A stretch of DNA of 34,416 bases from Capsaspora owczarzaki ATCC 30864 (Eukaryota > Opisthokonta > Filasterea): positions 322,252-356,667 of the forward strand of contig NW_011887293.1 in assembly GCF_000151315.2 (NCBI RefSeq), read 5' to 3'. The notes under the pieces were generated by a model that was not told where the DNA came from, searched no databases, and was given only the letters and a program-made list of their open reading frames with translations. The position numbers and the translations under genes are program-made. This document shows, piece after piece, positions 2,827 through 30,100 of the stretch (position 1 is the first letter of the stretch; each line of letters starts with the position of its first letter).

Positions 2827-3839
2827 GTCCACAAGCGAGACACAGTGCGAGAAACGGAAACAACCAAAAAAAAAAAAAAGCAAAACAAAAAACAAGTCGA
2901 AAACACTACCCCTGCACCCGACAACGGGGTCGAGAAGCAGCAGCCTGCAGTGGATGGAGTGTGAAGCAAAGCCCAGTCACGATGCACACAGGGTGGGGGC
3001 ACATCCGGCAGTGCTAGCACCGCACCGACAGCGGGGAAGGCAGAAACAAACAAAAAATAAAAAAATAAAAAAATATAAAAAAAATCGAGTCCGCCGACAC
3101 GACAGATCAATTGGCTTGAAAACCCCACCGTTGCGGCCATTGAGTGACAACTGTGCGTCGGGGCGACACGGGCTACCCTCTGCGCACATGCCATGTGCAT
3201 CCAATAGAAGGCTCTCTGGTTCCGCGGTCGCCCTGCATCTCCCGCCACAAAAACAAAAAAAAAAAAACAAAAAAACCGCCAGCCAAAAAGCCAATGCAGG
3301 TTTTTTTTTAAAAAAAAAGAAAAAGGGGCGAGGTTGGTAGTGCGCATGTCGAGCGGCCTGGGCAGCTGGAAAGCACGAGGGCCCGATAGCACTGTGTGGT
3401 GTTTTCGGGTTGTTGCGTTTGAGCGCGGCTCAGAGTGGCAGCGGATCGATTGGCGAGCGACGAAGGTTCGTTCCGCGCCCTTCCGCCGCTCTGGTTTCGC
3501 TCCACTGCCCCTCGAAGCTTAAGGCGCAGTTGCGGAGGGTTGGGGGTGGAAGCGAACATGGAGCTCGCTTCGAGAGTGCCGAGAAGAGCGACAGGGAGCG
3601 AGGGGCGGGGACGGAGGAGAAGCGACCGAAGCGCATTGGCAAAGACGCGACATGTGTGTGTGTGGGTCGCGATGAGCTGGGGCCTTGTTGAGTGGGGGTT
3701 TTGAATCGACGCTGAGGGCTTTCCGTGTTGGAGGGAGCACGGATGGGTGCTGATCACGATAGGTGGTTTGCGACACTGGTGTTGTTTGTGGGATGGAGGG
3801 AGAAGGGAAGAGGGAAGAGGGAAAAGAAACGAACGAACG

Positions 3840-3878
3840 AAAAAAAAAAAAAAAAAAAAAAAAGCCTTACCTTGCTGC

Positions 3879-3946
<68 letters not shown>
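3840..3946. repeat. Double poly(A) tract (24 nt and 65 nt)
   Basis: Two A runs, at 3840-3863 and 3882-3946, are separated by 18 bases of mixed sequence. The second, at 65 nt, is the longest homopolymer in the window. Tract lengths this long are often mis-sized by sequencing. Confidence 0.85.
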
Positions 3947-4443: not shown

Positions 4444-7400
4444 ATGGCGCTGCGTGCGGCTCGCTGGCTCGTGGTTGGCGCTGCTTTCGGCCTGCTCGCC
4501 GCTTTCGCCCTCCCCGCGGACGCCGCGCGATCAGCCGCTGCGAATGCAGTCGCACTGCACCAGCTAATTGGCGCATTTCGAGACACGGGCCATCTGGCGG
4601 CGTCGACAGACCCGCTGCAGTACGCAAAGGCGGTTGGCACTCGGCCGGCGTCGCTCCCGCAGCTCGACTACCACACGTACGGCTTCACCGACGCCGACCT
4701 GGACGTCGCATTTGACCTTGGCGAGGAGCTCTTTGGGACGTCGTCCGACACAATGACGCTGCGGCAGCTCGTCAGCAACCTCAACCAGACGTACTGCGGC
4801 CACATTGGCTTTGAGTACGGCCATGTTGTGGATGCGGATCGCCGACAGTGGTTGGTCGAGCAGATCGAGACGCTCGCTGCCCGCGTCCCAAGCACCGTGT
4901 CGTGGTCGGACATGCTCGGATTCCTGGTCGAAGCGGACACCTTTGCGAACTTTGTCAACGAGACGTGGCCGGACGATTGGACGTTCCCAATGAGCGGGTT
5001 GAACAACCAGCTCACTGCAATCAAGTCGCTCATCCGCGCAGCCTCCGCCAATGGCATTCAGGCCATTCACTTTGGCATGCACCATCGTGGTCGAGACGAG
5101 TTTATGCACAATGTCATGCAAATCCCGCTTCCTGCCGTGTTCCATTGTGAGTTGGCAACAGTTTGTTTTCCGAATTGGTTCCTGCTGCTTGTGTGCTGCG
5201 GGGGAGGGGAGGGGGGCTCGAGGTCAGCAGCGCATGTTGTTGATGATGAAAGGGGCTTGTTGATTGCAATCCTATGGCTCTTGCATTGAGTTGGAGTCTC
5301 GCTCTGATCTGCCTTTTGTGTTTTGTGCACGGTTGCTCACCTCCGACCCCGCATTGCTGAAATCCCTACTCCTAATTCTTCTGAAAGACATGGATGACGA
5401 CGATGCATCGCCAGGTCACCCCATCTGCAGCGCCGAAGGCGTCTGCTACTCTGGCGATTCCATCTACGGAATGGGCACCTCAGCGTGGCTCGAAATGCCA
5501 AACAACAAGTCCATTTGGGTGTCGGTGGCGTCCAACTCTGCCCATCTCGATTCCAACAATCCCATCGTTGCAGGTGAGTGGCAAGAGTTTTTTCGGCTCG
5601 CTGCAATCGACTTTTCTTGTCACAACCGGGAAAAAAAAAAAAAAAACAGCCTTTCTCTGTTGTTTTCCCCCTTGAACTTGCCTTTGTAAGACCTCTCCCT
5701 CACCGTCACAATCTCAATTCCCGGAGTTAGGAAGCGCGGGCGCTGTGATGGACATGATGAATGACACTGTCGGCGAGTTTGTACTGCCCGTCCTGATTTC
5801 CGGCGACGGTGCCGTCTCTGCACAGGGCATTGTTGAGGAGACCAAGCTGCTGACCAACCACATTCACGGCTACCAAACGGGCGGATTCCTGCACCTCGTC
5901 AACAACAACCAGATCGCCCACACAGTCGACCCGGCTGTCACTCGTGTGGTGCCCTATCCCACCGACTTTGCCAAGGTGATTGACGGCCCCGTCTTCCATG
6001 TCAACGGCGACGATCCAGAGTCGGTTGCCTGGGTGGTTGAACTCGCCATGCGCTTTCGCCAGCAGTTTCACGTCGATGTTGTTATCGATGTGATTGGGTA
6101 TCGCCGCCAGGGCCACTATGGCAATCCGCAGGCCGACCACCCTCTGTGGAGCAACCCGCAGCTGTACGACTTTATTGCGCACCATCCAACAGAACTGGCA
6201 GTCTACAGCAACACGCTCATTCAACGCGGTGTCATCACCCAAGACGCCATCGACGGTCTGGTCGACGATGAGCACACGCGCCTCTACAATGGATGGGTCA
6301 ACCGCACGCAGTACCCGGTCGAAGACATTGGCCAAGAGTACATCTGGCCCTTCCTGGAGGCGCCGTGGCCAAAGCTGCTGGCTCCGTCCTTTGCCGCCAA
6401 TCTCTCAGCGTCCGTTGTCTCGACGATTGGGCGCACCATCCTCTTCGACGCCATCCCGGCCAACATCCAGCTGACTCCGGATCTTGCGCAGCTGCTCACG
6501 CTGCGCCAGCAGCAGTTTGACAGTGGCCAGGTTGGCTGGGCTGTGGCCGAAGCTCTCGCAATTGGTTCGCTGCTCAACGAAGGGTTTGACGTGCGCATGA
6601 CCGGCCAGGATACCATCCTGGGCATTGCGCTCGTTCGCGCCATGGAGCTGTTTGATCGCAACACATTCACAAGCTACCGCCCGCTGGATCAGATTCGCAC
6701 CATGATCAATCCTGCTGCCGGCCGGTTTCGCCTGTTTGACAGCTCGCTGTCCGAGCTGGCCGTGCTCGGCTACGAGCTCGGCTACAGCATTCAGCGCGGA
6801 GACGACACGCTCGTTTTGTGGGACATGCACAACGCCGACTTTATCAACAACGCGCAGATGATGGTCGACCAGTACATTGCAGAGGGCGAGGTCAAGTGGT
6901 TCCGGCAAACCCCTCTGACCCTCATTCTGCCCATGGGCTACGAAGCATGCAATGGCCCAGAGCACTCCAATGTGCGCATGGCCCGTCTGCTGTTGACCAC
7001 AGACGGGAGCGCCGTGTATTGGAACAGGACGCGCACCATGTACGGCGACATGATGGCCGTCAACATTATCGTCATCTACCCGACGACCCCTGCCAACTAC
7101 TTTCATGCCATTCGCCGACAGATGCACTTTAACAATCTGGCTGGCTACGCTCTGCGGAAGCCTCTGTTCCTTCCGCTGGGCCTGCGTCTGCTCAAAAACG
7201 ACCACCTCACTTCGGACATGTCCGAATTTGCAACCGACACCTTCATGCCAGTCATCGGGGAGACTGACGGACGTATCGTCCACGCCTCGCAAGTCCAACG
7301 CATCATGTTTTGTTCTGGCCAGATTATTTCCGCGCTGAACATTTCTCGCGTCCATCGGAACAGGTGGGATGTTGCGATTGTTCGGCTGGAGCAGCTTTCG

Positions 7401-7814
7401 CCCTTCCCGTTCCAGCTGGTTCACGACCAAGTCGAAATGTACCCGAATGCGGACGTCATGTGGGTGCAAGAAGACCCCAGAAACATGGGCGCCTGGTTCC
7501 ACTTCCAACCCCGATTTGCCGTGCTGTACCCTGGCAGGCCGCTGCTCTATGCTGGGCGCAACACAAGTGCTGCGGCTGCTACTGGCTTCTGTCGCCTCAG
7601 CCAAGCGGAAGAGCAGCTGTTGTTGAATGACGCGTTCGACCTGCCCAAAGCAATCTGGCTGCAGCCAAGCGATGCGCCCCTTTCGACAGCAAGCTGGGTC
7701 GGAATAGTTGTCGGAACCGGTGTTGTGATGCTTGTTGTCGGAGCTGTGGCCGCACTCTACATTATTGCACGCATCAACCGTCGCAACCGTTCCGAGCGAT
7801 TGCTCGTCAATTAG
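4444..7814 (+). CDS. Membrane-anchored 2-oxoglutarate dehydrogenase E1-like protein
   Basis: Exons 4444-5146, 5388-5573 and 5731-7814 splice in phase (1,1) to 990 residues. ATG 4444 is the only in-frame ATG before the hydrophobic start. Residues 1-28 look like a signal peptide (WLVVGAAFGLLAAFALPADA). The body follows the OGDH/DHTKD1 E1 fold from end to end: LIGAF..TGHLAA..DPL (about 41), HRGR (214-217), a thiamine-diphosphate-type GDGAVSAQG (Asp322), a VNNNQ loop (about 354), the LSELAVLGYELGY block, GPEHS (about 700) and NMGAWFHFQPRF. A membrane span at about 952-975 is followed by a short Arg-rich tail, and NxS/T sequons are frequent, so a type I surface or secretory protein is inferred. 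In E1 enzymes the family motifs are YHMG, RGTF.HRH and LPHG; here they read YGMG, LGIALVRA and LPMG, so normal dehydrogenase activity is doubtful. The mitochondrial-type N-terminal lipoyl-partner segment is absent. The function is unknown. Confidence 0.85.
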
Positions 7815-8164
7815 TTGCCTTCTGTTCTTGTAGTTCTCTGTCATGTCTCTTCTTTGTCACAGCTAAAAAAAAAGCTGATCAGATTCTTGTCAAACTCCAC
7901 CGACCGTGTTGCACCGAAGTACAATGAGAGCGAGAGAGGGAGAGCGAAAGCAACAAGACAAAAAACAAAATAAAAAAAAAAACTCCGAAAAAAAAAAAGC
8001 AGAGTCTTACATTATCGACCCCAATCGTCAAAACAAAAGTCAAACACAAACAGCTAGAACACCAATGAACAGAAACAGGACGAAAATGAACAACACAACG
8101 GTAACAAGAAGCAGCATCCTGGAATCAAGACACCTGCCGCGAAGCTAGCACAGAGTAGCCGGCA
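7815..8164. other. Convergent 3' intergenic region
   Basis: Three hundred and fifty bases lie between the stop of the E1-like gene (+) and the stop of integrin beta (-). The region is A-rich. AATAAA inside an A run near 7968 is a candidate polyadenylation signal for the + strand gene. Nothing else is recognisable. Confidence 0.6.
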
Positions 8165-11100
8165 TTATTTACCGCTGTCATTATACAGAGGATTGCTGTA
8201 CTCTGTTCAAGCAAACATAGACAAGAGAAGGGGAGGGGGTGGGGGTCAGATGGTGGAAGCAAGCACCGCCGCAAATTCATGTTCAAATCCTGCTGCTCTG
8301 ACAACACGAAACAAACAACAAATTTTTTTACCAGTTGTGGATGCCTTGAAGAGAGGATTATCGTCACCCTTCCACCGCGACTTTTCACGCTCAGCTTCGA
8401 ACTTGCCCCATTCTCGGCGATCACGCATGCCGTTGATCAACTTGAGAGCGACCAGCGCTGCGATGGCGGCGACAATAATGCCACCAAACACACCAACAAA
8501 GACACCAATCGTGGTGCCGACAGGGAGATCGCCAAGGAAGGGGCAGTCGCCGTTGGAGCGGATGACCGTTCCAGTGCAAACGTTTTTGACATTGCCATTG
8601 GTGTTGTTGTAGCATTTGCCGAGATCCTCGCACCACATGCAGCCGCGGTCATTGTGATCCGTGCAAGAGCCGCAAGACGTGTAGTTGGTGCAGCTGTCGT
8701 GCGGGCACGTGTTGTTCACAGCGGTGACATCGCACCAGGTGCACTGGCCAGGAGGTCCCCAGAATGGCGCACACACGCAAGTGCCGCAAACGCACGTGCC
8801 ATGCTCGCCGCAGTCGTGACTGCAAGGGCCGCACTCGCACGAAGGTCCTGTAAAGTTGTTCTTGCAGTGGCATGTGCCGCAAATACATTCGCCGTTGCCC
8901 GCGGCCTGGTTGCACTTGAAGCCGTTGATGGTTTCGCCGCCGCACTCGACCAAGGAGCAGTTGCAGCTGGCCCCACTGTAGAGCGGGCTGCCTTGCGCGT
9001 CCGCGTCGCACTTGCACTGGTGGCACTGGGTCGCATCGCTCACGCACGTTCCATGACCAGAGCACTCGGACGTGCCGTCCCATCCGGCGCAGTGTTCAGT
9101 CCGGTCGCACAAGCACTCGGTCTCGGGAGTGTAGTTGCCAGTGCAAACGCACTGACTGCAGTTGCAAGATCCATGGCCGAGCGCAGAGTTGCAGTTGCTC
9201 GCCGAGTTGCATCCGACGTTCCAGCACGAGCAGTCGGCGCCAGTGTACAGGCCGGAGCAGGTGCACACACCGCACGTGCAAGTGCCGTGGCCGCTGCAGC
9301 CGTTGGGGCATGGTGCGTCCGAGCATGAGCAGTCGGGCTTGGACTGGTAGCCAACATCGCAGGTGCAGGTGCCGTCGCAGTTGTTGCACTGGCCGTGGCC
9401 CGAGCAAGTCAATCCGCCGCGCGAAGGGCAGTTGTTGTTGCATGCGCAGTTCAAGCCAGAGTAGCCCGCCTGGCAGCGACAAACTCCACATTGACAGGTG
9501 CCATGGCCGCTGCAATTGTCCGGACAGACGGTCGAGCAGGAGCAGGACGAGCCAGTCCATCCAGGCTCGCAGACGCACGAGCCAGCCGTGCAGTTGCCAT
9601 GTCCACTGCAGCTATTGGGGCAGGGAAGAACGGGTGTATCGCAATAGGTTCCAGTGTAGCCGGGACGGCACGTGCATTGGTTGCACTTGCAGCTGCCGTG
9701 GTTCTCGCAATCGACACCGGAGCCCGAGGGCTTCATGCAGCCAGGCGCAACGGTCGGGCACGAGCAGTCGATGGCAGAGGTGCTGTTCCACGCTGCGTCG
9801 CACGTGCACACACCACAGTTGCAGGTACCGTGGCCAGAGCAAACGTCGCCAGTCGAGGTCGGGCAACCCGTGGTCGGGCATTCGCACGCGGGGCCAGCAA
9901 AGCCTTCATTGCAAACGCAGGTACCGCACTGGCACGTGCCACGAAGAATGCCGTTGCACACGGCGCCATTGTAAGACGGGCAGGCCATGGGATCAGAGTT
10001 GCACGTGCACGTCTCGCCAGTCCAGCCATCGTCGCAAGTGCAGCGGCCACACAAGCAAGTACCGTGACCGTTGCACTTGTTGACCGGGCAGAGCCCCGCG
10101 CAGTTGCAGTCGTTGACGAGGTTGACGACGATGGAGACTGCGCTAAAGCCGACGAACGTCACGATAATCGTGTTGCCATCCGTGCGGGCTCGGGTGCCGT
10201 CGTACAGCAGGGTAAAGTTGAACTTGTACGTAGTGCCGACAACGACATTGGTGTAGCCAACGGCAGCGGCGGGCGAGATGGCGCTGATAAACCCTTCGTT
10301 TCCGTTGGACTGGACGGCGGCAACAATGGTGGAAGCAATCGAGTTGTATGCGTCGCTCAAGAGCTGAACCAGGTTATCCGAGTTGGTGGCCAAGGTGCCA
10401 GATTGGCCAAACCCGAGTGCGGTCACAAGATCCTGGAAGGTGCGCTGGTTGATGCCCGTGGCGGTCGAGCCGAAAATGGGGACAATGTTGTTCTCAATCA
10501 GAGCGTTTTTGAGCTGGGAAAAGCTTGGATAGTCGTACTTGGTCGACGCATCGTCGATAAACCGGTTGACTGCATTTGTATTCGTCGAAGGAAGGGTGAA
10601 GGCAGAGTCGGGCACATAGCACTTGTACGGGAAGGGCTCGACAATGCCAGCCATGTAGCCCTCCTTGCGGAAGTGGGTCGTGTCATCAGTCAGCATGAGC
10701 ATGAGCCGGCGGGGCTGATACGTCGTGTTGAAGCTGGGCCAATCGATCAGCTTTTGGCACAGAATGGCCTGGAGCATGCCGTCAATCATGTTTTCAGGCG
10801 TGTCAATGTTGCCTTGAATGCCAGAGATGCCCTGAACGAGCGTCACAAACTGGCCGAGGTTGTAGGAGAGCGGCAGGCGAGCTCGGAAGGCGTGGTTGGT
10901 GGGCAAGCTGGTGCCGCCAGTGTACGTCGAGTCCTTAATCCAGCCAGAAGTCGTCCAGCGGCCCATCGGGTAGGCAGGCTTTTCGAGGAAGCTGCCAAAG
11001 CCCAGACGAGCGCAGTTCGTGTTGGAGCAGGTGGGGTTGCTCGTGTCCGTGCACAGCTGGGTCACCTTGGTTGCCAGCGGTTGCGCCAAGCTGCGCACCT

Positions 11101-11486
11101 TGGTCAAATCGTCGTCCATCGAGCCGGAAAAGTCCATCAGCAGGTACAAGTCGACGGGTTTGCACGGCTGCGGCGTCACAGATACGGTGACAAGCAGCGG
11201 TTGGCCCGCACGCAAAAAGACGTTCGTCGTGGTCGGGCTGACCTCGGGCGTTGAGCCGCTCGTGCCCAGAACGCGAGACGCCGGGCTCTGCCAGTTTGAG
11301 CATGTGCCAGCCGCCGACTGGCACTGGCCGTGGTCGCCGCACCAGCCGCACATTGTCAGCGCGGCATTGTTGATGCAGTCCTCGCAGATGGTGAATGCGC
11401 TGCACGGATCGGATGTCTGTGCGCGAGCTGCAGAAACAAAAAAGAATAAAAAGTTAGTGTGTTTTTTCGGGCTCGTGCGATGATGG

Positions 11487-11534
<48 letters not shown>

Positions 11535-12203
11535 TGTTCAACCACCGTCGTCGTCGAGCAAAGTGGCTCAATACATGCGGCGTGCACACGCTGAGCTCCC
11601 CCCAGTCCCACCGCAAGCAACAGACAACAAAAAGTAGAGTTTTAACACCCGTCGCAAGCTGCATAAAATGGAGACAGACATTGGCGTTCAGGACAAGGGG
11701 TGTTGCCGAATGTTAGAGTTGGAAAAAAAAAAAAAAAAGACGAATAAAACAAAAAAAAGGCTCGATCGAGCAACCGATAGCCAGAGGGGGCACCGGAGCA
11801 CAAGCAGAGCTCGAGACAAATAGGTGTAACGACTGTTTGTTTGACACGACAATAGCTCCGTTCTGCGTTTTGCAGCCGACGTGCCAATCGTCGTCAAACA
11901 TCCAGTACAATAAATTACAATAAAATATACAATAAAAAAATACAATAAAACAAATAAAATATTAAAAAACCTTGTTTTTTCTTTTTGTTTTTTCTTCGCT
12001 TCGGCAGAGCACAGTTCGGTCGTTCCGAAACGCCACCACAGCAACGTCGCAGGGAGACGCGCACATGCAGCAACCACCACCACCATAGCACACTGCATCC
12101 TCTGTGCAACGCCACAGCACAACGAGAGAGTCGCAAACCGACCTTGGCCAAGGCAAAGCAGCAGCGCAAGAGCAAGCAGCGCCAAAACTCGCTTCGCTGC
12201 CAT
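8165..12203 (-). CDS. Integrin beta subunit
   Basis: Exons 12203-12143, 11427-8332 and 8202-8165 splice (both phase 1) to 1064 residues. In order: signal peptide (MAAKRVLALLALALLLCLGQ), PSI module (about 27-65), and a betaI/VWA domain (about 113-360) split into a hybrid domain. The MIDAS is intact (Asp119, Ser121, Ser123, Glu232, and Asp in the LTDD segment), followed by the ADMIDAS Asp pair and the NIDTPE LIMBS/MIDAS loop. The disulphide-bonded specificity loop of animal subunits is not seen. About twelve cysteine-rich I-EGF-like modules (CSGHGTCxCGxCxC) run from about 461 to 955, against four in animals. Then come a membrane-proximal PSI-like module, one TM helix, and a tail with DRREWGKFE, NPLF and NPLY. 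It should pair with an alpha subunit at the plasma membrane and bind talin-type adaptors. It is divergent from integrin alpha at 13572. The last exon, only 38 nt, supplies the NPLY motif. Confidence 0.93.
8203..8331 (-). other. Integrin beta intron 2
   Basis: A 129-nt intron (GTAAAA...GAACAG) with a C/T-rich 3' part. The frame stays open through the donor for a further 30 codons or so, which could mislead a gene model. Splicing to 8202 instead gives a tail ending EYSNPLYNDSGK. That places NPLY eight residues after NPLF, the same spacing as between the two NPxY motifs in animal integrin beta tails. Confidence 0.85.
11428..12142 (-). other. Integrin beta intron 1 with 45-nt homopolymer
   Basis: A 715-nt intron separates the signal-peptide exon from the PSI domain. 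The donor is AAG/GTCGGT and the acceptor TTTCTGCAG. It contains a 45-nt homopolymer at 11489-11533 (T on the + strand) and AT-rich DNA at 11900-11970. The donor is somewhat weak, but the joined phase and the resulting signal peptide support it. Confidence 0.75.
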
Positions 12204-13571: not shown

Positions 13572-16500
13572 ATGCAAAGACGAATGCTGCACCTGGGCCT
13601 GGCGGTTTTCTGCCTTGCCATGGTGACACGCTTAACGTACGCTCAGTACATCTCACCTGCGCCCGTCTGGACGGCTCGCGGCGAACAAGCAGGCGCACGC
13701 TTTGGTAACACTCGCTTCGAACGCCCTTTATTTTCGACAGTTGTTCGGCTTCTTTTTTTTTTTTTTTTTTTTTTTTTTTCTGTGTAAGACTTTGTTTAAG
13801 TGTGGGACGAGTTTTTTTTTTTTTTCTTGTTCTTTTTTCCCAGTGCACTTGTGGTACAGCGCAGCGTCCAATACGCGGTCGCTCAGATACCGAATTTACG
13901 CTTGTGCTCGATAGTTTGTGCGTGTGTGTGTGGAGGAAACGCTTTAGCAGCTGCTGTCGCTTGCCTGTCGATGAGCGAAGCTGCTTTTTTCTTCTTTTTC
14001 CCTGTTTTTTTTTTTTTCCAGTTTTTATTTTATTTTTGGTTTTTGTTTCCGCCTTTTATTATTGTTCTCTTCGCTCCGTCTCAACCACATAGAAAGCAAG
14101 AAGAAGAAGAAGAAGAAAAAAAAAATCAACCAACAATGCAAACTCACCTCTATTTTTGTTTTGTTTTTTTTTGGCTGGCTTTTAAAAACACAGGTTCCAC
14201 TCTCCTGATCGACGACTTTGACAGCGATGCTCAAGTCGACTTTGTTATTGGATCGCCGTACTTTTCGCCATGGTACGACCATGCCACCAAGGCAAACGAC
14301 CGCACCAACGAGGGTGACGTGACTGTGTTTTATGGCGCGTTGCAGGCGCGTCAGCTCATCCGCGACAAGTGGAGCAACATTCCGGCGTCCTTCATTACCA
14401 ACGGTATCCAGGGAGCGTACATTGTCGACGCGTCCATCCCTTCCGCCGCTCTGATTTCAAACACAAATGTCCTGGTGATCAACCTGGCCACCAATGCTGT
14501 CATCACTGCCAGCCGCGCCATTACTGCGCACTTTGCTTCGTTGCCGGCGGCCTTCCAGAGCGGCATTGACACGATTCTGGACCATCCCGACGGAAAGCTG
14601 TATCTGATCAAGGACACCAATGTTTGCACGTACACCAAATCGTCGCTCGCGTTTTTCGGGACAGACACAGTGACTGCGGCCTTCCCCGGTTTGAGCACGT
14701 ACGGCTTCACGACGGGCCTGACCGCAGCCTTCTCGAACAACGTCAACCAGATTTACTTTTTCAAGGGCACCCGGTATCTCATGTGGGATTTCGAGCGCTC
14801 CAACGTCAACACTGCTTTGCCCTGGCCGATCAACATTAACGCAACCTGCTCCCCATTTGCGACGGCCTTCCCAACCGGGTTTCGCACCGCGTTTACGAGT
14901 GTGCAGGTGACGGCGAAATGGTCCACATCCACCATCCCCGTTCAGAACATCCCGTTCGTGTATGCCTTCACCGCAGACGGCTACTTTTCCATGGCCCCTT
15001 CGCGATTCTTGACCAACTGCCGCTTTGGCGGATGGGCTGGCAATGCCTTGGCTTCCGGCAAGGCCACGTCCACGTCTTACTCGAGCTTGTTCCTTGGCGC
15101 ATATGGTTGCGCGAACGCGTGTATTGACAACGAAGGTTGCCTCCAGTTTGGTCGCGTTTGGCAGTTCACCGGCTCGGCGCGTGGCCTTCAGTTTGTCGCT
15201 GCGAACAACGACCAAACCACCGACTCGCGTGGCACCCGCACCTCGGGCACGCATGTGGGCACCTCCTTGGATGTCGGCATGGGCCGCCGAACGGGCGCCT
15301 ACCAGCCAGTCCTCACTGGAGGCAACTTGTGCTCGGGTGACTTTGCGGGCTCGGCGTACAAGTACGGGTCCTCGTTCAACCTGGCCGATGCCTCGCAGCA
15401 GACCAAGAACGTCGTGTTGAACACCAAGATGGGCTTGACGGTGCTTGCGCGAGGCGAGTACACTGGCGACACCTACGAGGATTTGGTTGTGAGCTCGATT
15501 CGTGGCGACGCCTCGTCGACCGTCAACCCATTCTTTGCGGGCACTGTTTTCATCTACAGTGGCGCGGTGACAATCACCAACGCCAACCCTGTTAGGCGTC
15601 TCGAGGGCACTGTTTTCGGCGCTGGTTTCGGCCACTGTCTCGAGCGTGCGGATCTCAACGGCGATGGCCGCGACGACCTCGTGATTAGCGCTCCATTCAA
15701 TGATGCTGGCCGCGTTTACGTGTACCTGCAGGCAGCCAGCACCGGAATTCCCACGACCGCCACCATGTTTGTTTCCGGGCAGGTCACATACGAGGAATTT
15801 GGCTTTAGCGTAGTCCGCATTGGCGACTTGAACAACGATGGGCGCGACGATGTTGCCATCGGCGCACCCATGTACAACTCGCACGAGGGCCGCATCTTTT
15901 TGCACTTTGGTGCCGCCACGGGTCTCAACCCGACTGCGGCTCAAATCATCCTGGGCAGCTCCGTGTTTGGCTCGGCCTACCTCAGCTCGCCGATGCAGTT
16001 TGGCTACTCGATTGTTGGGCGCGACTTGGACTCGGACTCGTATCCCGACTTGCTTGTGGGTGCTCCCAAGCTGGACGGCGTTGGCGGTGCCGTCTTGCTC
16101 TACTCGAACAACCAGGCCGATTCGAGCATCACGCTGGCGACGACTCCCAGCAGCACCATCACGTCACCCGGCTCCTTTTCCGCTGCCTTCACCGTGACCA
16201 ATGCCGGACCCAATCCTGCTGTTGCAGTCACCTTCACGGTCGACTTGTCAAGCGCCAGCGTCATCAATGCCAACCCCGCCGTCACGGGAACGCTCGTCAG
16301 CTCCAGCATCTCGGGCTCGCAGCTGCTGGTTGAGCTTGGTGACTTGCCCAATGGTGCCAGCCGTGTGATTACGCTCAATTTCGGCGCACTCGACGTCACG
16401 TACCTGTACCCGAGCAGCATCAGTCTTTCCGCTCACCTTTCGCAAAACAACTCGTCGTACGACTACGTGTCTTCCAACAATGACGTTTCTGCAACGCTCT

Positions 16501-19233
16501 CCATTGCGACAATCGCCGACCTCATGCTCCAGAATGCCCCAGTGCTGGTCAAGAACACTGCGCCATTCACGGCAACGTCCATCCAGCAAGGCCAGGACAT
16601 TGTCATCCCGCTTGTGCGCGCCATCAACCTGGGCCCTGCGACTGCCTTTGGCACGAGCATCAAGTTTACCCTGCCCTACGGCGTGACTGTGAAGAGTTTC
16701 AACACCACGCTGGGTATCTGCATCGGCGTGACCTCGCTGGATTGCAACTTTGGCAATCTGCTCGTCAACCAGAACGTCACCATTTTCAACTTGGTGCTCG
16801 CCACGGCCTCGTTCACCTCCACAGCTGGTGTCACCATTACGATGCAGTCCTCCAGCACCGAACCGACGCCCGATACCCATTCCAACACGTTCGTTACAAA
16901 CACCGTTTCCGTTGATTCGACGTCGTCCGACCTTGCTACTGCCGCCCTCAGTGTGTACCCGACAGCCGTGGAGGCTGGTGGAAACCTGCTCATGTTCGCC
17001 ACCTTCTATTGCGCCGGTGTGCGTGATGCCGACCTTGCCATTGCCACCCTGACGTTGGGCGCCGGCACCAACGTCACCGATGTCTCCCTGGCGGGCTTTG
17101 CGGGCAATTGCTCGACAGCCACGTCGGGAGCGTTCGGTGCGGCTGTCGTCACCTGCTGGATTCGTTTCTTCCGTGCAGGCGCGTCGGCCACTGTCACTGT
17201 GGCCGCCGACGTTAGCGGCCTGCTTTTGGCTGGCTCGAGCATCGCCTCGTCCGCCAACATCACTTCTGCGCTGCATGACCCTGTTATGACCGACAACTTT
17301 ATGGCTGGCCCGACCATTTCAGTCTCCCGCCTCACCAAGTTCTCCGTCACGCACGTGCTCGATATTTTTGATGTCTACTCGCCGCCGTTCTACCTGAACA
17401 ACCTGGTGAATGTGACCACCACCGTTCTGAACGAAGGACCCTCCCCGATGCTTGCGCCAGTTGTTGTTTACATCATTCTCGACCCTCGCCTGACGTTTGG
17501 AGACTTGCTGTTGGATCACGGATGCACCGCCACCTTGCATGCTGGTGCCAACATTACTGTCGCCTGCTCAGTTCCTGCCTTCCCCGTCGGCAACGCTATT
17601 GACCTCAACACGGGCTTTAAGATTTCGTCGGCGACCTCGACCCAGATGACAGTCCGCTCGTTTGTTGACGTGGCCTCCCAACCGGCCCCCTTGCTGCTGG
17701 ATGTTGACTTTACCGTGGATCTCGTCACGTCGCTTCGCCTGCCTGACGACGTTGTTGGATTTTTTGAGGTTCCGCAAGGATCGAGCTTTACCATCACGTT
17801 CGGCTTCAATAACGTCGGTCACAACGACGCCACCAACGTCGTGGCCACGCTGTCCCTCCCAAGCCACGTTACGTTTGTCCAGGGTACAGGCACGCCCTAC
17901 ACTGCCCCGTGTGTCCTTGTCGGCTCGGACGTTCAGTGCCCGATGGGCACGCACGTTCGTGACAGCGGTTCCATCTCGTCTGGCCAGATCACCCTGACAT
18001 CGTCCACCGTTGGCGTGTATGACTTTGTCCTCAACAGCGCTTCGGATCAAACTGACAACACGGACAATCGGGCCTACTTTTCAGTGAGTGTGCGCGAGTT
18101 CTCCGATATTGCATTGTCGCTCAGCGCACCGACGCTTGCGACCAAGGGTGGCCAGCTCACCTACGGCGTCCAAGTCGACAATCTCGGTCCTGGTGATGCG
18201 CACGACATTGAATTTACCCTGGCATATGACGCTGCTCACCTCACCATTGTTTCCTTCAACCAAAATGCGACCTACGGCTGCACCGAGTCCACCCCAGGAT
18301 CCCTGCTGTGCCCCTTTGGCTCGCTCCCACCGTCTGGCTCCATTACCGCCCTGGCCTTTGTGTTTGCCATTGCCGAGGGCAGTCCAAGCTCAGTCACTGC
18401 GACCGGCACGCTGACCCAATCCGTCGACGAAGGCACTGGCGACCCGCTCCTGAACAACGTTGCGACCCGGACGACTGGGCTTGCCGACCCCTATGTCGAC
18501 TTTAAGCTGTCCATGACCTTCACGCCGGCCGTGTTTATCGTAGAGCCGGGCCGCCGGTTTGTCGAAACGCTCATCATCTCGAACGATGGTGTGCGCGCTG
18601 ACCAACCCATCTTGTCGATCGAGTCCTGGCCGTCTGGCATGATCATCAACTCGATCGACCTGGCCTCGGCGGCAGGCAACACGTCTCTCCTGACTGGCTG
18701 CCCCATCCTCAACAGCACAAACCCCGCTCCTTGGAACTGCACCTTGCCCTCGCAGCCTGCTCGAACCAACGCGTTCATCGTGACTGCCACGGGCTCGTTC
18801 CTGTCGAGTCGCGACGCCATCAATGGCTTGGCCTTGTTGAAAGCCCGCGTATCGCCCCTCAGTATCAACGACATTGACCCTGACAACAACGCTGCTGACG
18901 GCATTTTGGAAATCACGGTCACCGTTGCTCGTGCCACAAGCGATGATGATAGCTCTGTCGCGTGGTGGATTATTCTCCTGGCATGTCTCGGCGGTGTACT
19001 TGTTGTTTCAGGTGAGCGGTGTGATTTTTTTTTTTGGGTTTTTGTATTTGTACAGGGGAGTGGCGTCAAAAGTTTGCTCAAAGCTTCAAAGCTTGGATGC
19101 CACGCGCAAAGCTCACCCTGCCATTTTCTGTCTGTATTTGTGATTGATAGGCGCAATCTTTATGCTGAAAAAGCGAGGATTCTTTGCTCGCAAGTTGCCT
19201 CCGCCCATGCTTGAGAATTCTCTTGAGGATTAG
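13572..19233 (+). CDS. Integrin alpha subunit with hemopexin-like insert
   Basis: Exons 13572-13704, 14194-19011 and 19151-19233 splice (both phase 1) to 1677 residues, against about 1000-1200 in animals. Signal peptide 1-25. FG-GAP propeller blades are visible at about 38-98 and 453-680, with calcium-type loops DLNGDGRDDL, DLNNDGRDDV and DLDSDSYPDL. Between them, about 100-260 carries hemopexin-like repeats (HPDGKLYLIKDT; YFFKGTRYLMWDF) followed by a Cys-containing stretch (about 318-440). From about 690 to 1620, repeated DUF11-like Ig-type modules (TVTNAGP, TVLNEGP, FNNVGHNDA, VDNLGPGDA) replace the thigh/calf leg. A TM helix (about 1634-1655) leads into LKKRGFFARK, matching the animal GFFKR clasp. 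No alphaI domain is present. The partner should be the divergent integrin beta. Confidence 0.92.
13705..14193 (+). other. Integrin alpha intron 1
   Basis: A 489-nt GTAACA...CACAG intron that is very T-rich, with poly-T runs at 13752-13779, 13812-13824 and 14007-14018 and an AAG repeat near 14097-14117. Part of the frame is open through it by chance. Splicing joins GARFG to STLLIDDFD within the first FG-GAP blade. Confidence 0.85.
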
Positions 19234-19549
19234 CGTGTTGTGTTTGTTTGTTGTGTGCCGGCTGCGTCGTGGCTGCGTGTCTGGTGTTGTTTGTTTGTTG
19301 TTGGTTGTTGTTTGTCCTAGCAATTGTTGCTACCGGCCTAATAGAAGTATTTTGTTCCTGGATGGTCTACGGTTGTTGTGCATGTTAACTCACAGTAGAG
19401 CTTGTTTTAGGAAGGCTACAGTTCTATGATTCCAGTTTGTGTCATACAACATAAGCGAGTTTGTTCACAGCATAGAGATTCAATCCTTTTTTTTTCTCTC
19501 TTTTTTTTTTTTTTTTTTTTTTTTTTTCTATCTCTTTTGGTTTTCCAAG
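19234..19549. other. Intergenic region before the DOT1-like gene
   Basis: Between the integrin alpha stop and the next start, 316 bases in tandem orientation. It is TTG-rich at first and ends with a poly-T tract (19499-19527) and TTTTCCAAG immediately before the ATG. The tract may be a pyrimidine-rich leader or the acceptor of a 5'-UTR intron. Confidence 0.5.
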
Positions 19550-19952
19550 ATGGAAGGCGAGTCTGGCGCTGCTGCATCAGGAGGGCACGTCGCTGCACCG
19601 CCCCTCGCAGCAAATGCATCAGAAGCAACACACGACGCATACGTCCAATCTCATCCTCAACACGCGAAAGCGACAGAATCAGCCAATGCAGTTGTAGATC
19701 AGAATGAGCGTAGTGAAGCCGCTTCACACTTGCTGCCGAATCGCGACCAACAACTACCCAGCATGTCAGTGTCAGTCGAGCCAGCAAGCGCACCCCCCGC
19801 TGCAGCACTACCATCAGCATCGCCATCTGTATCATCATCATCATCATCATCAGCATCAGCAGCAGCATCATCAGCATCAGCAGCAGGAGGAGGCAGGCGA
19901 CGAGGCGGCCAATCTCAATCCCAATCCCAATCTCATTCGCATTCTCAAACAA

Positions 19953-19987
<35 letters not shown>

Positions 19988-21801
19988 GGAGCGTCGACAA
20001 CGACACCGCGCGCCGCTTTGTCATCATCATCATCGTCATCGTCCCCAAGCGCAGGCGTCGAGCAGCGAACGTCGACGCGAGTGCAGCGCCGCAAGCGAGA
20101 TGCGCAGATTGACTATCTGCAGCTATTCGACTTTGTGTTTGCCGTTGCGCCCGAGGCTGCTGCAGACGCCGCTGCGGCCCGCGAGAAGCAGCGCAAGGCA
20201 GCCATGATGCTGACGGACGAACCCAGCGGCGCAACTGCAGCAAGCGGTGGCGGCAGCGGCGGCGGCTGGGATGGGTCGACTGCGCAGCGTCGAAGGCTTC
20301 CTACATCAGCGACGACGACGACGACTCGTCCTACCAGTGTCAATGGCATTAGCAGTAGTGGTAGTAGTGGTAGTGGTAGTAGTAGTGGTAGTAGTGGTGG
20401 TGCTGCAGCGGATGGCCACCCTCAGCCTCAGCGAACTGGTGCTGGCCATGAAAAGCATTTCCCAACAAGCGAGCGACTGACTTCCAAGCGACCCGCCGAG
20501 CCCTCCTCATCCTCATCAGCATCAGCATCCTCATCGTCATTGTTGACGACGTCTGGTGGCGATGGGAGCCTCAAGACGAAGCCGGGAAGCGACGACGCCA
20601 AGCAAAGAGCAGCCAAACTGCCTCGATTGGAATCCGCATCGTCCTCTTCTTCTGCTGCTGCTGCTGCTGCTGCTGCGAATCCTGCGCCGGGTGGTCTCAG
20701 TGCGATCGACATGTCAAGTGCACACAAGAGCATCCTGTCGAGTGCTGCTGGTGCTGCCGCTGGGACGACCCATGCAGCGAAACAGCGAACGCAGCAGGCT
20801 GGGTCGGGATCTGCGTTGCCCTCGCCAACTCCCAGGAATGCATCGCGAGTCAATGCCACGTCCCAAGCTCAAGTTGCGAGTGCAGGTGGTGTGCAAGCTC
20901 AAGTTGCGAGTATCAGTGGTGCGCAAGCTCAAGTTGCGAGCACGAGTGCAAATGGTCCTCAAGTTCAAGCTCAAGCGCAGGATTTCGTCGCGCCAACAGT
21001 CTCAGTCAGCTCAGAAGGACCGTGGTCGGCCTCGTTTGCAGTGGGAAGCGTCCCTCCGATGATGCATCACCATCCAACTGCGGTGATTGCAATGGACGTG
21101 ACGATGCAGCCAAAGACATCGTCCTCCTCGTCTTCGTCGCTGTCGTCGTTGTCGTCACCTTCACTGAATGCGCTAAATGCGACTTTCATCAACGGCAAGG
21201 AACTGTCGGATCCGAATGCTTTGACTGTGGGAAATCCCAACCATCGCCACCCCCATCAGCATCAGCAGCTCCATCCACAACATCCTCATCAACAACATCA
21301 ACATCCGCATCAACAACATCAACATTACATTCAGCAGCCTCAGTACTCTCACCAGCCAGCAAGTACATCAGTGCAACACATTCAACACAATCAGCACCAT
21401 CATCACCACCATCAACTCCATCATCCAGCCCACTTGCAGCAGCCACCGACGCGGCACCATCTAGAGTCGAGCGACCAGCGCTCTTCGTCCTTCTCTCTGC
21501 CACCGAGCCAGCTGTCTCTCGGAGGCTCGGAGTTGTCGGATGTTTCGCGAAAACTGTCAATGGCCGCAGCGGATACATCTCCGGTGATGGACGGCTTTTC
21601 ACCTCACAACAGCTTGCTTCGACACTCTCATTCGCACACTGGCATCACTGGCATCACCGTGGTTCCCGAGCAGCAACAGGCATTTGCACTTTCCGCCGAT
21701 TTGAGTCTACCGACACTCCACAGCCACTCGCCTTCGTCTTTAGCTTCGGATTTGCAAATGCTGCAGCATCAACTACAACAGCAGCAGCAGCAACAGCAGT
21801 C

Positions 21802-21876
<75 letters not shown>

Positions 21877-24361
21877 GCAGCAGTCGCAGCTTCACGAGTT
21901 ACTTCAGCACCAACATTTCCTCCAACTGTCCAACCACGCCAGCCTGAACACACCACCCCAACCGCTCCCGTTACCACAGGTAGCCGACGTTGATGCCTAC
22001 TCAGTCAAGGACATTACTGTCGCCCTTGCGACACTTGACGCTGATGACCAGGACTGGCTGGCTCGGCTTGCGACCACTGGGCTCACCCAACAACTCCCCG
22101 TGTTGATCAAGGTCCTCCATCGAATGAAGGATCTGCAGCAACAAAACACGACGCTGCAGCGACAGCTCCAGGCGTCACTCCGCGCTCAGGCTTCTGGCCA
22201 GCTCCTTTCGCCTGGAATGCACAGTGTAGCGTCCTGGTCGTCGTCTGCTGGAAACCACACGCACCCTCAATTGTCTGGGCGGCCACACACAAGCACCTCC
22301 AACCATTCCCTCCTTTCGCCACATCTCGTCGCGTCGCCGCGGCCAGCCCAGTCTCCCCGGCTGGCATTCGGGTTTAATTCGAACAGCTCTCCAATGCTTG
22401 ACGCCATGTACCATGCCGACGAGGCAACGCCACACTCTGCGGGCAGCTCTGTCACCATTCCTTCAGCAGGTTCTTCCACATTGGTGCCTACTTTTGCTCC
22501 CGAGTCTGGTGTGTCTGCCTCATCTGTCGCAGCCGGTTCTCTGCTCGCCAATAATGCTCCTGTCATGTCAGGAGCAGCAGTGCCTGGCATGCCTTCCACA
22601 ATGGAACTGGGCAATGCAAAGTTGGCTCTGCTCCCAGGACCTCATCAAATCTCCGAACCTGCTGCGATCAAGATGGAGGACGCGCCCTCGTCGTCAATGT
22701 CCACCCCAAATGCGCTTGACAAAAAGTTGGTTAGTTCAAAGACACAACCCATGTCGTCAGCTTCCCCGACCGCAACTGACGCCAAACCGGCGGCGGCGTC
22801 GGGTAAAAAGCCATCCCAGAAATCAACGGCTACTCCTCCTCCTCCTCCTCCTCCTCCTCCTCGTCCCTCTACTCCTCCCCCGCCTCCGTCGGCTGAGACG
22901 TCCGCCGATGCATCAAAGCGCGGGCGTGGACGACCCAAAAAGTCCGACGCGGCTGCTGTCTCGACGCTCGACTTGGTCGCGAACGACCCCACCGTTCCGC
23001 CGCCGCAGTTGATCCGCTCCCTCTTGCCCGCGCTTCCAAAGTGGCGTGGAACGGCCTCAATAGCACCTGGAGTCGACGCCATCTACCGCTTGATTGACCG
23101 AAAGTCGGATCTCCATTGGGGCATGTCGAGCAACTGGGATGTGAGCAATCAACGCTCCCGCCGCCGGACAGAGCGCGTCGTCGTGGACTTTGACGACGCT
23201 TCAACGCTCATGGCGAGTGCTGCGGAGAGGAAGGTTCACTCGGCGTCAGAGCCACTCAGCGAGACGTACGGCGAGTGCACCATTGGGTCTGTGGCCCGCA
23301 TTTTGGACATGCTGGGCAATCTTTCTGCCTTTGTGCAGGAGAACTACCAAGGCCGGCTTGCCGTCCCGTACGATGCCAAGTTTGATCTCGGTCGCGACTC
23401 CAAGTTCCTCGACGTCGGGTCTGGGTTTGGCAAGGTCGTCTTTCATGCCAAGCTTGCGCGTCATGTTACCGAATCGGTGGGAATCGAATGCGTCTCGATG
23501 CGCCACAACATTGCCGACCACATTCGCCAAATGGCTGCCGCATGGGAGATTCCAGAGCTTTTGGTGGACGAAAACGCGCCCACCCCTCCTCCCCGCCGCA
23601 CCTTCACCAATCCCTCAACCCCGATCGGCTCGAAAGCCTCCAGCGCGGCGGCGTCTCCTGCGGCCGTTGCCACTGACATCCATACCCTGGATTCCAGTCA
23701 TCTGGAAGAAGGCCACCCGCCTCCCAATCTTTCCTTGCTAGAAAGCGACTCGGCCAGTGCGGTCGAGTCGACGCTTGATGGTACCCAAGGCGGTGGCGAG
23801 CCTCGTTCCAATGCGGGGGTTGCCGACACGCTGACAGCACAACCCATGGATGTCGACGCGTCAGCCTCCTCCGACAATGGGCACTCTCAAGCGGCGGGAA
23901 TGCAGCATCCTTCGGAGGACTCGGTCCCTTCGGCAGTCGCAACTCCCATGGAGATCGAGCCGAGTGCTGCTGCTGCAGCTGCTGCAGGCAGGGGCGGCAA
24001 GGCCAGGACGGTGAAAAGCTCAAAGCTGCCCCAGCCTGGTGTGAGGTCGCTGCTCGACACGAACGGCTTGCTCTTCTGGTTTGGAGACGCCACTCGCTAC
24101 GCCTCACTCGACTATACACACATTTACTGCTTTGACAAGGTGTTTTCACCCATGCTCTTGCAAGAGATGGCCAAAACGCTCAACCGCTCTGATTTCTACA
24201 TTTTGGTGAGCTATCATGCTCCGGAAGTGTGGTTTTCCCTTGGCCTGTTCAAGATCTTCCCTCTGGGTGTCTGCCCCATGAAATCTACTGGCAAGGAACA
24301 TTTCACGGCGTACATTTACCTGAATGTGGTAGCAGCCAAAGCAGCTCTTCTTCGTGGCTGA
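19550..24361 (+). CDS. DOT1-like histone methyltransferase with long low-complexity N-terminus
   Basis: Single open exon, 1603 residues. ATG 19550 is the first in-frame ATG. Residues 1-830 are low complexity: Ser tracts, Gly/Ser, His/Gln-rich (about 565-640), and poly-Gln (about 741-780). A short coiled-coil-like segment (DLQQQNTTLQRQLQASLRAQ, about 861-880), a Pro tract and an AT-hook (RGRGRPKK, about 1125) follow. The catalytic part starts near 1240: TYGECTIGSVARIL, then SAM motif I FLDVGSGFGK (about 1286), VGIECVSMRHNIA, and after a gap THIYCFDKVFSP and ILVSYHAPEVW. The order matches DOT1-type enzymes (YGE, D-GSG-G-V, G-E, F---FS), which methylate histone H3 Lys79. About 170 low-complexity residues split the Rossmann fold. 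In DOT1 the acceptor-strand motif is usually NN, here FD, so the exact substrate is uncertain. Another class I methyltransferase is possible. Confidence 0.72.
21771..21889 (+). repeat. CAG/CAA polyglutamine repeat
   Basis: About 40 Gln codons with rare Ser interruptions in the DOT1-like gene. The 5' part is mainly CAG and the 3' part (about 21834-21875) is a pure CAA run. The synonymous codon switch shows separate expansions. Length polymorphism between strains is likely. Confidence 0.9.
22834..22866 (+). repeat. (CCT)n polyproline-coding repeat
   Basis: About ten consecutive CCT codons encode a Pro run in the DOT1-like protein, just before its AT-hook. Confidence 0.85.
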
Positions 24362-27151: not shown

Positions 27152-30100
27152 TTATGCCTCGGAGACACCGCCGAGCTCGGCAATCTCGAACGGCGCGCCA
27201 ACAATGCGAAGCTGAGACGCGGGCTTGAGGCTCCGGATGCACTCGGTCAGGCGATTGCACCCGAATATTTCAATCCGCGACAACTGCTCGCACGATCGCA
27301 CAATCGCAGCAAAGCTCGGGTCGTCCATGGACCGACACCACGAAACATCCAGCACCTGCAGGTCTGTCAAGGCCTGCGCGCTGAAGGCGGTGGGCTCGGG
27401 GAGCGGATCCACAATGACGACGCCGGTGGTCGGGTTGCGCCGCACAGGCAGCTGCGCGTGGTGGAGACGTGTCGCTTCGATTGCTTGGTCGAACAACTCG
27501 CGGTCGTGTGCAATGCATGCAAATAGCGCCGGAGTAAGATTGTTGAGCGAGTTTAACGAGAGGACGCGCAATCGAGGGCAGTGCAGCACGAGCTGGCCGA
27601 CGCCCAGATCAGACAAGGTGCCACAGCGAGTGAGATTGATTTGCTTCAACTCGGGCGCGTGAGTGGCGATATTGGCAACGGTTTCGTTCGTCATGGCTGC
27701 CGCGCAATTGGCCGCAGATAGGCACCGAAGCGCGTGGCAGCGCGAGCCAATCATCATACCCGTCTCACGCCCAATGGCAAGCTCGTCAATGTACAGCTCT
27801 TCGAGGTGGGCGCCGATGGCCCCGAGCAACGGAATGACACCGCGATCGGTGACTGTGCACTGCGCCAACGACAGAGTTTTCAAATTTGCGAGACCGTGGA
27901 GGACAGAAAGCATGTCGTCGGTGATGGAGATGCAGCACTGCAGCGACAAATGCCGCAGCGAGGCAGACAGAGCGGCCATGTTGTCGCTCATCGTTTTGAT
28001 GAAGCGAGCACCCAAGTTGGCGGAAACCGAAATCTCGAGCCGCTCCAGCCGTGGATGGCTTTGGACAAGTCGAGCAAACGCGGCGTCTTTGACGAGGAAG
28101 CAGCCGTTCAATCGAATCGCATTCAGCAGGACGCACCTCTCGGACAAAAAGTCAAGAGCGGCGTCGGTGAGCCGGCCACAACAATCCAAGAGCAAGCTCA
28201 GCAAGCAGGGGCAATGCTCGGCGATGAGTCCAAACCCATCTGCATCCAGGCCTGGTGCGCAATCGAAAGGAAAGGCCGTACACAAAACACAAAACGACGA
28301 CAAGCAGACGACAAAAAAAGAGTCAGCAACCTTAAAAAAAAAACACGAAAAAGGAAGAAGCACTTTCGTATTGTTGTTGTTGTTGCTGTTTGTTGTCCAA
28401 CATACCAGAGCAATCGCCCAGCTTCAATTCCTCCAGCTCGGGTGTAAGGAACAAGGTCAACGTCGAATTGTTGAGCTTTCGGTGTCGGCAGATCACGGAG
28501 CGAATGTTGGCGAGGTGCGCGGGCGCAATCGGACCGAACGATTCAACTGAGTCGATATACTTGCAAATAACCTGCACAACAGTCACGAAAGAGGGGGGGG
28601 GCAAAACGGAAATGAGCCAACAAATCAGCCATAACAAGACACAAAAAGTCTCTCCTCCTCCTCCTCCTCTCCCTCCCTCCCTCTTTTCCTCGGCTTACAT
28701 TGACACAAAGTTGCTGCAGAGGAGGCACGGCGGTTTCCGTCCCGAGCACATTGATTTTGGTGGCGACACGACGACCGCGCTTCAAAGCCGACTCTGGCTG
28801 CTTTTCTGCAGGCTTGGGCGACGACGATGCAGATGCTCGCGTGCGTTCTGGAGGCACTGCATGCACCAGCTGGGTCTGCTAATGCTCATATTTTCTGGCG
28901 TCAAGCGACAGTGGCAAATGATGCAAATGGTGTGTCCGTCACGCGCCATATCGGCAACGAAATTGGAATCTCCGCGGAATTGCCAATCATTATCATCATC
29001 ATCGGAACTGGACGAGCTGCTGCTGCTGCCGTTTCTTTTTCGAGACTTGCGCTTTGGTGTGCCAGTGGAGCTTGCAGCCTGTTCCTTCCCTTTGCCTTTG
29101 CCTTTGTCTTTGTCTTTGCCACTCGGTTCACCGTTGGCGGCACCATTGCCATTCGCCGTGTCCATCGACTGAAGCGCGCTGGTAGCCGAGCGACCCAACA
29201 TTGGAGCAAGAAGCAGGCTGCCGTCTGGAGCAGTCGCCGTCTGCGCATTGAAAGAGGGTGCAGAGGAAGAGCTAGCAGCACTTTCGACCTGGGCATCAGC
29301 AGCGGCAGCATCAGTCGCCATTGCTGCCGTTGCTGTTGCCTGGGCTGCGGCAGTAGCGGCGGCAGCGGCTGCAGCGGCGGCCTCGTTTCCATTCCGTCGG
29401 CGATACCAGTCGGTCGGAACACGCGACCGAATACCTTGCTCTTCCAAGAAGGAAGTGAGCGCGCTGCGGGGACCACGAACATTCCGCCGCGCTGTCGCTG
29501 TCGGAGTGGGTGCCGCTCTGGAGGATGGCGGTGGAGCAAGCATGACAGTGTTGCTTCGCGGTGAGCCAGACTGTTGTGCCTGTGGTTCCGAAGGCGCAAA
29601 GTAACGCTGCACGACAGTACTGGCTGTAAGCGTTGCTGGGTTTGCTGATTGTTCTTCTGTCGCCGAGGATGATGAGCTACCATCTCCATCATCGGGTTGA
29701 GGAAGAGCGGGCGCTGCCTGCGACTGTGTTGGCTGCGTGTCTTGGAGACCAGTGGTCTCGGTTGGCCTTGATTCAGGTGCAGGAGCAGAAACTGCAGAAA
29801 CAGATGCAGGAGCGGGTGCGGAGGAGGACGAGGACGACTCTTGCGGCGGAGGCGGCATGGAGGACGACGATGCTGAGACAGCCGAATTGGGAGAACCTGC
29901 AAAGGATGCGGTTGTCCATGCCGCTCCCTGCTGTAGGCGAGACACGGAGCAGGCATGGCAGTACCATGCCGAGTCGTCGTCTGCCAGCTCGTTCTCGTCA
30001 ATGTCGAGGCAAACCGGGTGGAACGCACGAGGGCAGCCATCGCAGCACAAGAGCCGCCCTGTGCCACGGCACTCGGTGCAAAACTCGTCGTTCTGATCTC

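Follow-up and report, generated by a model that had tools for sequence, protein, structure and literature searches.

An OGDH-type E1 protein of Capsaspora owczarzaki with a predicted signal peptide and C-terminal membrane helix

The 34,416-nucleotide window of the Capsaspora owczarzaki ATCC 30864 genome analysed here (contig NW_011887293.1, positions 322,252 to 356,667; coordinates below count from its first nucleotide) carries a gene for a protein that resembles the E1 component of 2-oxoglutarate dehydrogenase (OGDH) and is predicted to be anchored in a membrane. Reading on the forward (+) strand from the ATG at 4444 to the stop codon at 7812-7814, with two GT-AG introns spliced out, yields a protein of 990 amino acids that is identical (100% identity over 100%) to P0001, the protein CAOG_01282 of this strain, whose database label is "hypothetical protein". 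The open frame upstream of 4444 holds no earlier in-frame ATG. No account of the CAOG_01282 protein was found among the open-licence papers listed by our literature search. Long poly-A runs are present upstream of the gene, at 3839-3946. On the strand opposite exon 3, an open frame of 479 residues at 6405-7844 (-) most probably arises from codon bias.

Homology to human OGDH extends over residues 35-935 (479 bits), which agrees with an earlier sequence-only reading of this DNA that had described a 990-residue protein aligning over nearly the whole E1 length. The Pfam families E1_dh, Transket_pyr and OxoGdeHyase_C were found both in a scan of exon 3 and among the precomputed domains of P0001, while exon 1 alone matched no Pfam family; the three domains follow one another in order over ~900 residues, and together with a structure comparison they identify an OGDH-type E1 fold. 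A full-length search with CAOG_01282, in which 1,219 of 7,996 scored candidates passed the E-value limit, recovered one close relative, P0002, a protein of 1004 residues that shares 69% identity over 97% of the query; it is represented by two sequences, and its longest contig has 3,143 bases. P0002 likewise has a membrane helix and a tail, and its own signal-like start is followed by a Thr/Pro-rich linker. Among the matches listed from this search (best 120 of 1,219) and from a second one with residues 180-460 of P0002 (4,787 candidates, 2,693 under the limit; best 120 of 2,693), there was no third member, and the next matches after P0001 and P0002 had 37% and 43% identity, respectively. Candidates were restricted to proteins of at least 0.55 times the query length, and fragments may have been overlooked. 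The idea that other holozoans might have the same signal and membrane layout found no further example, since only P0001 and P0002 stand out among the matches listed. For residue-level comparison we used an alignment of 75 rows, A1, comprising CAOG_01282, P0002 and 73 rows chosen from 235 other matches; two of these 73 are known eukaryotic sequences.

The signal peptide and transmembrane helix of CAOG_01282 were called from hydropathy, from controls consisting of the listed homology-search matches that passed length and start filters, and from the relative P0002. The start of the protein, MALRAARWLVVGAAFGLLAAFALPADA, reaches a best 12-residue mean hydropathy of 2.42 and that of P0002 reaches 2.58, whereas the N-termini of 115 ordinary eukaryotic OGDHs average 0.67 with a maximum of 1.94, none of the 115 reaching either protein. 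The signal is thus strong at the start of both relatives, and the signal peptide is a predicted one. At the C-terminus, 19-residue means of 2.47 (CAOG_01282) and 2.71 (P0002) compare with control maxima of 0.99 in the 115 eukaryotic OGDHs and 1.30 in 204 other E1s, none of which exceeds 1.6; in the two relatives, windows of 19 residues above 1.6 occur at the C-terminus only, the start aside. The layout proposed by the sequence-only reading, here a signal-peptide-like start, a predicted transmembrane helix and a short basic tail, is therefore well supported, as the hydropathy lies beyond all controls and the layout recurs in P0002. The two proteins are 71% identical over the 898 columns of the core, 15% at the start (4/27) and 29% in the membrane helix (7/24); the letters of the start and helix drift while their hydrophobic character stays, as expected of real targeting and anchoring segments. 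The tails end in RSERLLVN and REERLLVN, respectively, and this motif, the same in both relatives, could be a candidate sorting signal of unspecified kind. A sorting signal common to other proteins was discounted, as the exact pattern ERLLVN-stop has no second copy in the Capsaspora genome.

These hydrophobic segments could have come from wrongly joined exons, and, judged from the DNA alone, an upstream exon with another start is possible. However, the signal peptide and the beginning of the E1 region lie together in exon 1, and the end of the E1 region and the membrane helix together in exon 3, so that those joins are independent of splicing; since P0002, from a separate source, has the same layout, an annotation artefact is scarcely credible. 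The N-terminus could also be read as a presequence, the protein then being a mitochondrial E1 held in the inner membrane, in keeping with the arginines close to the start (MALRAAR), the E1 ancestry of the protein and the mitochondrial location of ordinary E1s. By hydropathy, the CAOG_01282 start does not behave as a mitochondrial presequence, its N-terminal core lying above all 115 ordinary OGDH starts; the P0002 signal sequence looks classical, with no Arg before residue 38 and a Thr/Pro-rich stretch thereafter; the docking family PF16078 is missing and N-x-S/T sequons exceed those of ordinary E1s. A mitochondrial E1 is thus very improbable. We consider it highly likely that the E1 domain of CAOG_01282 is luminal or extracellular. 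The sequence-only reading had gone further and placed it at the cell surface: the fold held on one membrane helix is well supported, but the surface itself is not singled out, the endoplasmic reticulum, endolysosome and plasma membrane being possible alike, and we put the plasma membrane at slightly under an even chance.

The E1 region contains nine N-x-S/T sequons in CAOG_01282 and 12 in P0002, compared with a mean of 2.33 and a maximum of six in the other 73 rows of A1. Across 118 eukaryotic OGDHs, with sequons counted from residue 100 onwards, the mean is 4.14, and one protein of the 118 has nine. For six of the nine CAOG_01282 sequons, P0002 has one no more than a column away, where random placement predicts 0.34. 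The two proteins also have in common Cys248, Cys254, Cys703 and Cys917, which are absent from all 73 other A1 rows and might form disulphides 248-254 and 703-917. Taken together, the sequons and cysteines are fitting for a domain predicted to be luminal or extracellular, short of proof.

The N-terminal segment by which OGDH-type E1s dock onto E2 and E3, PF16078, had no match in P0001 or P0002 and is present in the ordinary Capsaspora OGDH, P0238. In human E1o, residues 18-40 of the N-terminal region bind both E2o and E3, according to PMC8146983. A second contact is loop 2, which is reported to supply residues engaging E2, such as His435 of DHTKD1 (PMC7340257). The loop 2 motif GHNExDxPxFTQP has become GHYGNPQADHPLWSNP in CAOG_01282, with three residues added and His425 kept, and P0002 is changed likewise. 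No secreted E2 partner was suggested among the three E2-type loci of the Capsaspora genome (27.5 Mb in 29 contigs), which look BCKD-, PDH- and OGDH-type when their reading frames are typed by eye.

Within the core, the residues predicted from motifs to bind thiamine diphosphate (ThDP) and Mg or to take part in catalysis, His214, Asp322, Asn355/356, His425, Glu638 and His708, are invariant in all 75 A1 rows. We take the role of Glu638 from its motif, LSE, whose glutamate is presumably Glu640 in DHTKD1. There are 219 columns that are near-invariant (at least 95%) in the 73 other rows; both relatives retain 153 of them and agree with one another at 206, which means that 53 of the remaining 66 columns bear an identical new residue in both. 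Replacements shared by the two proteins include KYH to IYG, GDAAFAGQG to GDGAVSAQG, NQIGFT to NQIAHT, WEAQFGDF to WDMHNADF and LPHG to LPMG, together with loss of the RGTFSxRH stretch. The ordinary substrate-pocket residues (KYH, NQIGFT, WEAQFGDF) are accordingly not those of CAOG_01282; the histidine of KYH, His298 in Escherichia coli, is one that we take to bind substrate. Near the active site, CAOG_01282 and P0002 are 87%, 87% and 94% identical over residues 181-235, 628-672 and 673-720, while Capsaspora OGDH and P0239, a comparison pair at similar distance, are 73%, 82% and 85% identical over the same stretches. The two pairs are alike over residues 373-440 (79% and 80%), and CAOG_01282 and P0002 show a large excess in the C-terminal domain (76% versus 59%). 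Set against the ordinary pair, CAOG_01282 and P0002 thus evolve much like a working E1.

As read from sequence, the protein is a complete E1 core with a signal-like start and a C-terminal membrane helix, found in two diverged relatives, from which the docking N-terminus is gone and in which the main predicted ThDP and catalytic residues are kept alongside new pocket residues common to both. We propose, at even odds, that an OGDH-type E1 has been rebuilt as a type I membrane protein that binds ThDP and acts as a non-oxidative enzyme without E2 or E3. The E1 domain would be luminal or extracellular and dimeric, would bind ThDP-Mg and would work without E2 and E3 on an altered 2-oxo acid. ThDP would attack the 2-oxo acid and CO2 would be lost, after which either the aldehyde would be released or the bound intermediate joined to an acceptor, as in a non-oxidative decarboxylase or a carboligase. 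Since the main ThDP residues are kept and both E2 contacts are altered, non-oxidative chemistry appears likeliest, and the altered pocket speaks against 2-oxoglutarate being the substrate. By part, ThDP binding by CAOG_01282 is probable on its predicted residues, and some catalysis stands at about an even chance. The stronger claim that it is an active ThDP-dependent ecto-enzyme at the cell surface, one that acts extracellularly to decarboxylate or condense 2-oxo acids with neither E2 nor E3, is doubtful. The suggestion of a moonlighting enzyme, also made in the sequence-only reading, fits poorly because the genome has the separate ordinary OGDH P0238, CAOG_01282 being a separate, diverged protein. 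2-Oxo acid E1s are usually regarded as parts of large matrix complexes. If the proposal is right, a conserved E1 that travels the secretory pathway, independent of E2 and anchored in a membrane, would be a new use of the fold and would raise the question of how ThDP chemistry proceeds outside the cytosol and mitochondria. It would also be an unexpected membrane protein for the lineage of Capsaspora, a close unicellular relative of animals in which the origins of animal cell adhesion are investigated.

Several observations weigh against this proposal. The supply of ThDP within the secretory pathway lacks an explanation. Near-invariant residues of the ThDP motif are replaced (Ala323 to Gly, Gly327 to Ala, Gly359 to Ala, Phe360 to His), as are those of the pocket (KYH, WEAQFGDF and RGTFSxRH, as above), and activity has possibly been lost as a result. 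The conservation pattern is nothing special, since the ordinary OGDH pair keeps the same stretches (73-85%). As PF16078 calls are missing in some ordinary E1s (for example P0058, P0083, P0093, P0283, P0313 and P0355), its absence is weak by itself. The sequence-only reading had spoken of many sequons, which holds relative to ordinary E1s; relative to shuffles of the protein's own composition the nine are marginal, the shuffled mean being 4.9 and 5.9% of 2000 shuffles reaching that count. Sequon asparagines are kept in six of nine cases versus 29 of 37 for other asparagines, so they are no better conserved, and sequon conservation was set aside as evidence of glycosylation. Finally, the conserved pocket suits a binding-only protein equally.

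The main rival is such a receptor or binder, in which the E1 pocket, at the surface or in an endosome, would hold ThDP, a thiamine phosphate or a 2-oxo acid for scavenging or sensing and would not turn it over. The pocket is strongly conserved between CAOG_01282 and P0002 while other parts diverge, pocket and E2-contact residues are replaced alike in both, and the short conserved tail could sort or signal. However, Glu638 and the three histidines His214, His425 and His708 are needless for a binder, and a tail of 17 residues is too short for a signalling domain; we regard a receptor as possible and distinctly less likely than the enzyme. An ectodomain of structural or adhesive function that merely reuses the E1 fold would be in keeping with the adjoining genes, which encode integrin beta and FG-GAP (integrin alpha-like) proteins, and with the excess of sequons over ordinary E1s. 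That both relatives retain the ThDP and catalytic residues is unexpected for a structural part, and a neighbourhood of genes by itself shows nothing, which leaves this explanation improbable.

To place the pair among known E1s, we used a tree of 36 rows hand-picked from 357 proteins. CAOG_01282 and P0002 group with 14 eukaryotic OGDHs (100/95), a result weakened by the long stem (2.58 changes per column, against tips of 0.29 and 0.27) and by odd letter make-up, for which both rows were flagged. They fall outside all 14 (79/53), to which long-branch effects may contribute. A recent copy of Capsaspora's own OGDH was rejected as a grouping (p-AU 0.004), and the main exon of the ordinary gene, uninterrupted across both CAOG_01282 intron positions, gives that reading no help. 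When human DHTKD1 was included (279 residues only), it, the eukaryotic OGDHs and the pair did not separate from one another, with a warning of long branches meeting, and the tree without DHTKD1 is therefore quoted. In a search of all 29 Capsaspora contigs, PF16870 (OxoGdeHyase_C) occurs at only two genes, CAOG_01282 and the ordinary OGDH, and hence no DHTKD1 gene was detected in Capsaspora. The sequences fit an old eukaryotic E1 copy that would have undergone a burst of change followed by constraint.

CAOG_01282 shares with OGDH, OGDHL and bacterial SucA the whole-core E1 fold, the GD and NN of the ThDP motif, the His of HRGR, the Glu of LSE and the His of GPEHS. It differs from them in lacking PF16078 and a presequence-like start, in having a signal-like start, membrane helix and tail, and in the replaced KYH, NQIGFT, WEAQFGDF and RGTFSxRH and rebuilt loop 2. 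Human DHTKD1 scores lower than human OGDH (361 versus 479 bits). With an offset of 21 in the numbering, the Ser, Tyr and His named for DHTKD1 in PMC7340257 fall at 263, 370 and 435; in CAOG_01282, Ser263 corresponds to Tyr261, as in OGDH, and Tyr370 to His360, as in neither, so its pocket is not that of DHTKD1. Mycobacterial KGD, a 2-oxoglutarate decarboxylase/ligase, carries a fused E2-like PF00198 (e.g. P0060, P0099) that P0001 lacks. KGD is cytosolic. HACL2/ILVBL, a ThDP lyase of the endoplasmic reticulum, is an enzyme tied to secretory membranes; it belongs to a different ThDP family and apparently has a different anchor. The features of CAOG_01282 are collected in Table 1.

Table 1. Features of the CAOG_01282 gene and protein, by position in the window
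Feature	Positions	Strand	Basis or remark
Exon 1	4444..5146	+	Encodes residues 1-234 plus the first base of codon 235; spliced translation identical to P0001
Signal-peptide-like N-terminus, residues 1-28	4444..4527	+	Hydropathy versus controls; P0002 start differs in letters, equally hydrophobic
His214 of HRGR motif	5083..5085	+	Invariant in 75 A1 rows; E. coli residue 260 by position
Intron 1	5147..5387	+	GT-AG
Exon 2	5388..5573	+	Gene model
Cys248...Cys254 in enlarged active-site loop, pair-specific	5426..5446	+	Both in P0002, 0/73 other rows
Tyr261-Gly262	5465..5470	+	KYH of ordinary E1s is IYG in CAOG_01282
Intron 2	5574..5730	+	GT-AG
Exon 3 to stop	5731..7814	+	Gene model
Gly321-Asp322-Gly323, start of predicted ThDP/Mg motif	5802..5810	+	321 and 322 invariant; ordinary E1s have Ala at 323
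Asn355-Asn356 of ThDP motif	5904..5909	+	Invariant
His360	5919..5921	+	In place of OGDH Phe, DHTKD1 Tyr370
Loop 2, residues 425-439	6114..6158	+	His425 retained, three residues inserted, NE..DEP lost
Glu638, predicted catalytic glutamate	6753..6755	+	Invariant; role by motif
His708 of GPEHS	6963..6965	+	Invariant
Predicted transmembrane helix, residues ~950-973	7689..7760	+	Hydropathy; predicted-structure helix at 959-989, low confidence
Basic tail, predicted cytosolic, 17 residues	7761..7811	+	Sequence; ends RxERLLVN as P0002 does

An integrin beta open frame at 8246-11620 (-), with VWA, EGF repeats and an Integrin_b_cyt tail, faces the E1-like gene tail to tail. Next in the neighbourhood is an FG-GAP/DUF11 open frame of integrin-alpha type at 13800-19214 (+); as these two frames are head to head, they may share a promoter region in the DNA that separates them. 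We draw no functional link to the integrin neighbours from position. Pfam scans of 10 further open frames in the window gave a family match in two. A 1640-residue open frame at 19439-24361 (+) matches DOT1 weakly over a short segment, residues 1314-1364 (26 bits). The region 27152-30257 (-) holds a PHD finger frame at 28782-30257 and weak leucine-rich repeat matches at 27152-28363. A SNF2-type helicase piece at 32216-33019 (+) is followed by a RING finger piece at 33575-34210 (+), and we guess that the two are exons of one gene.
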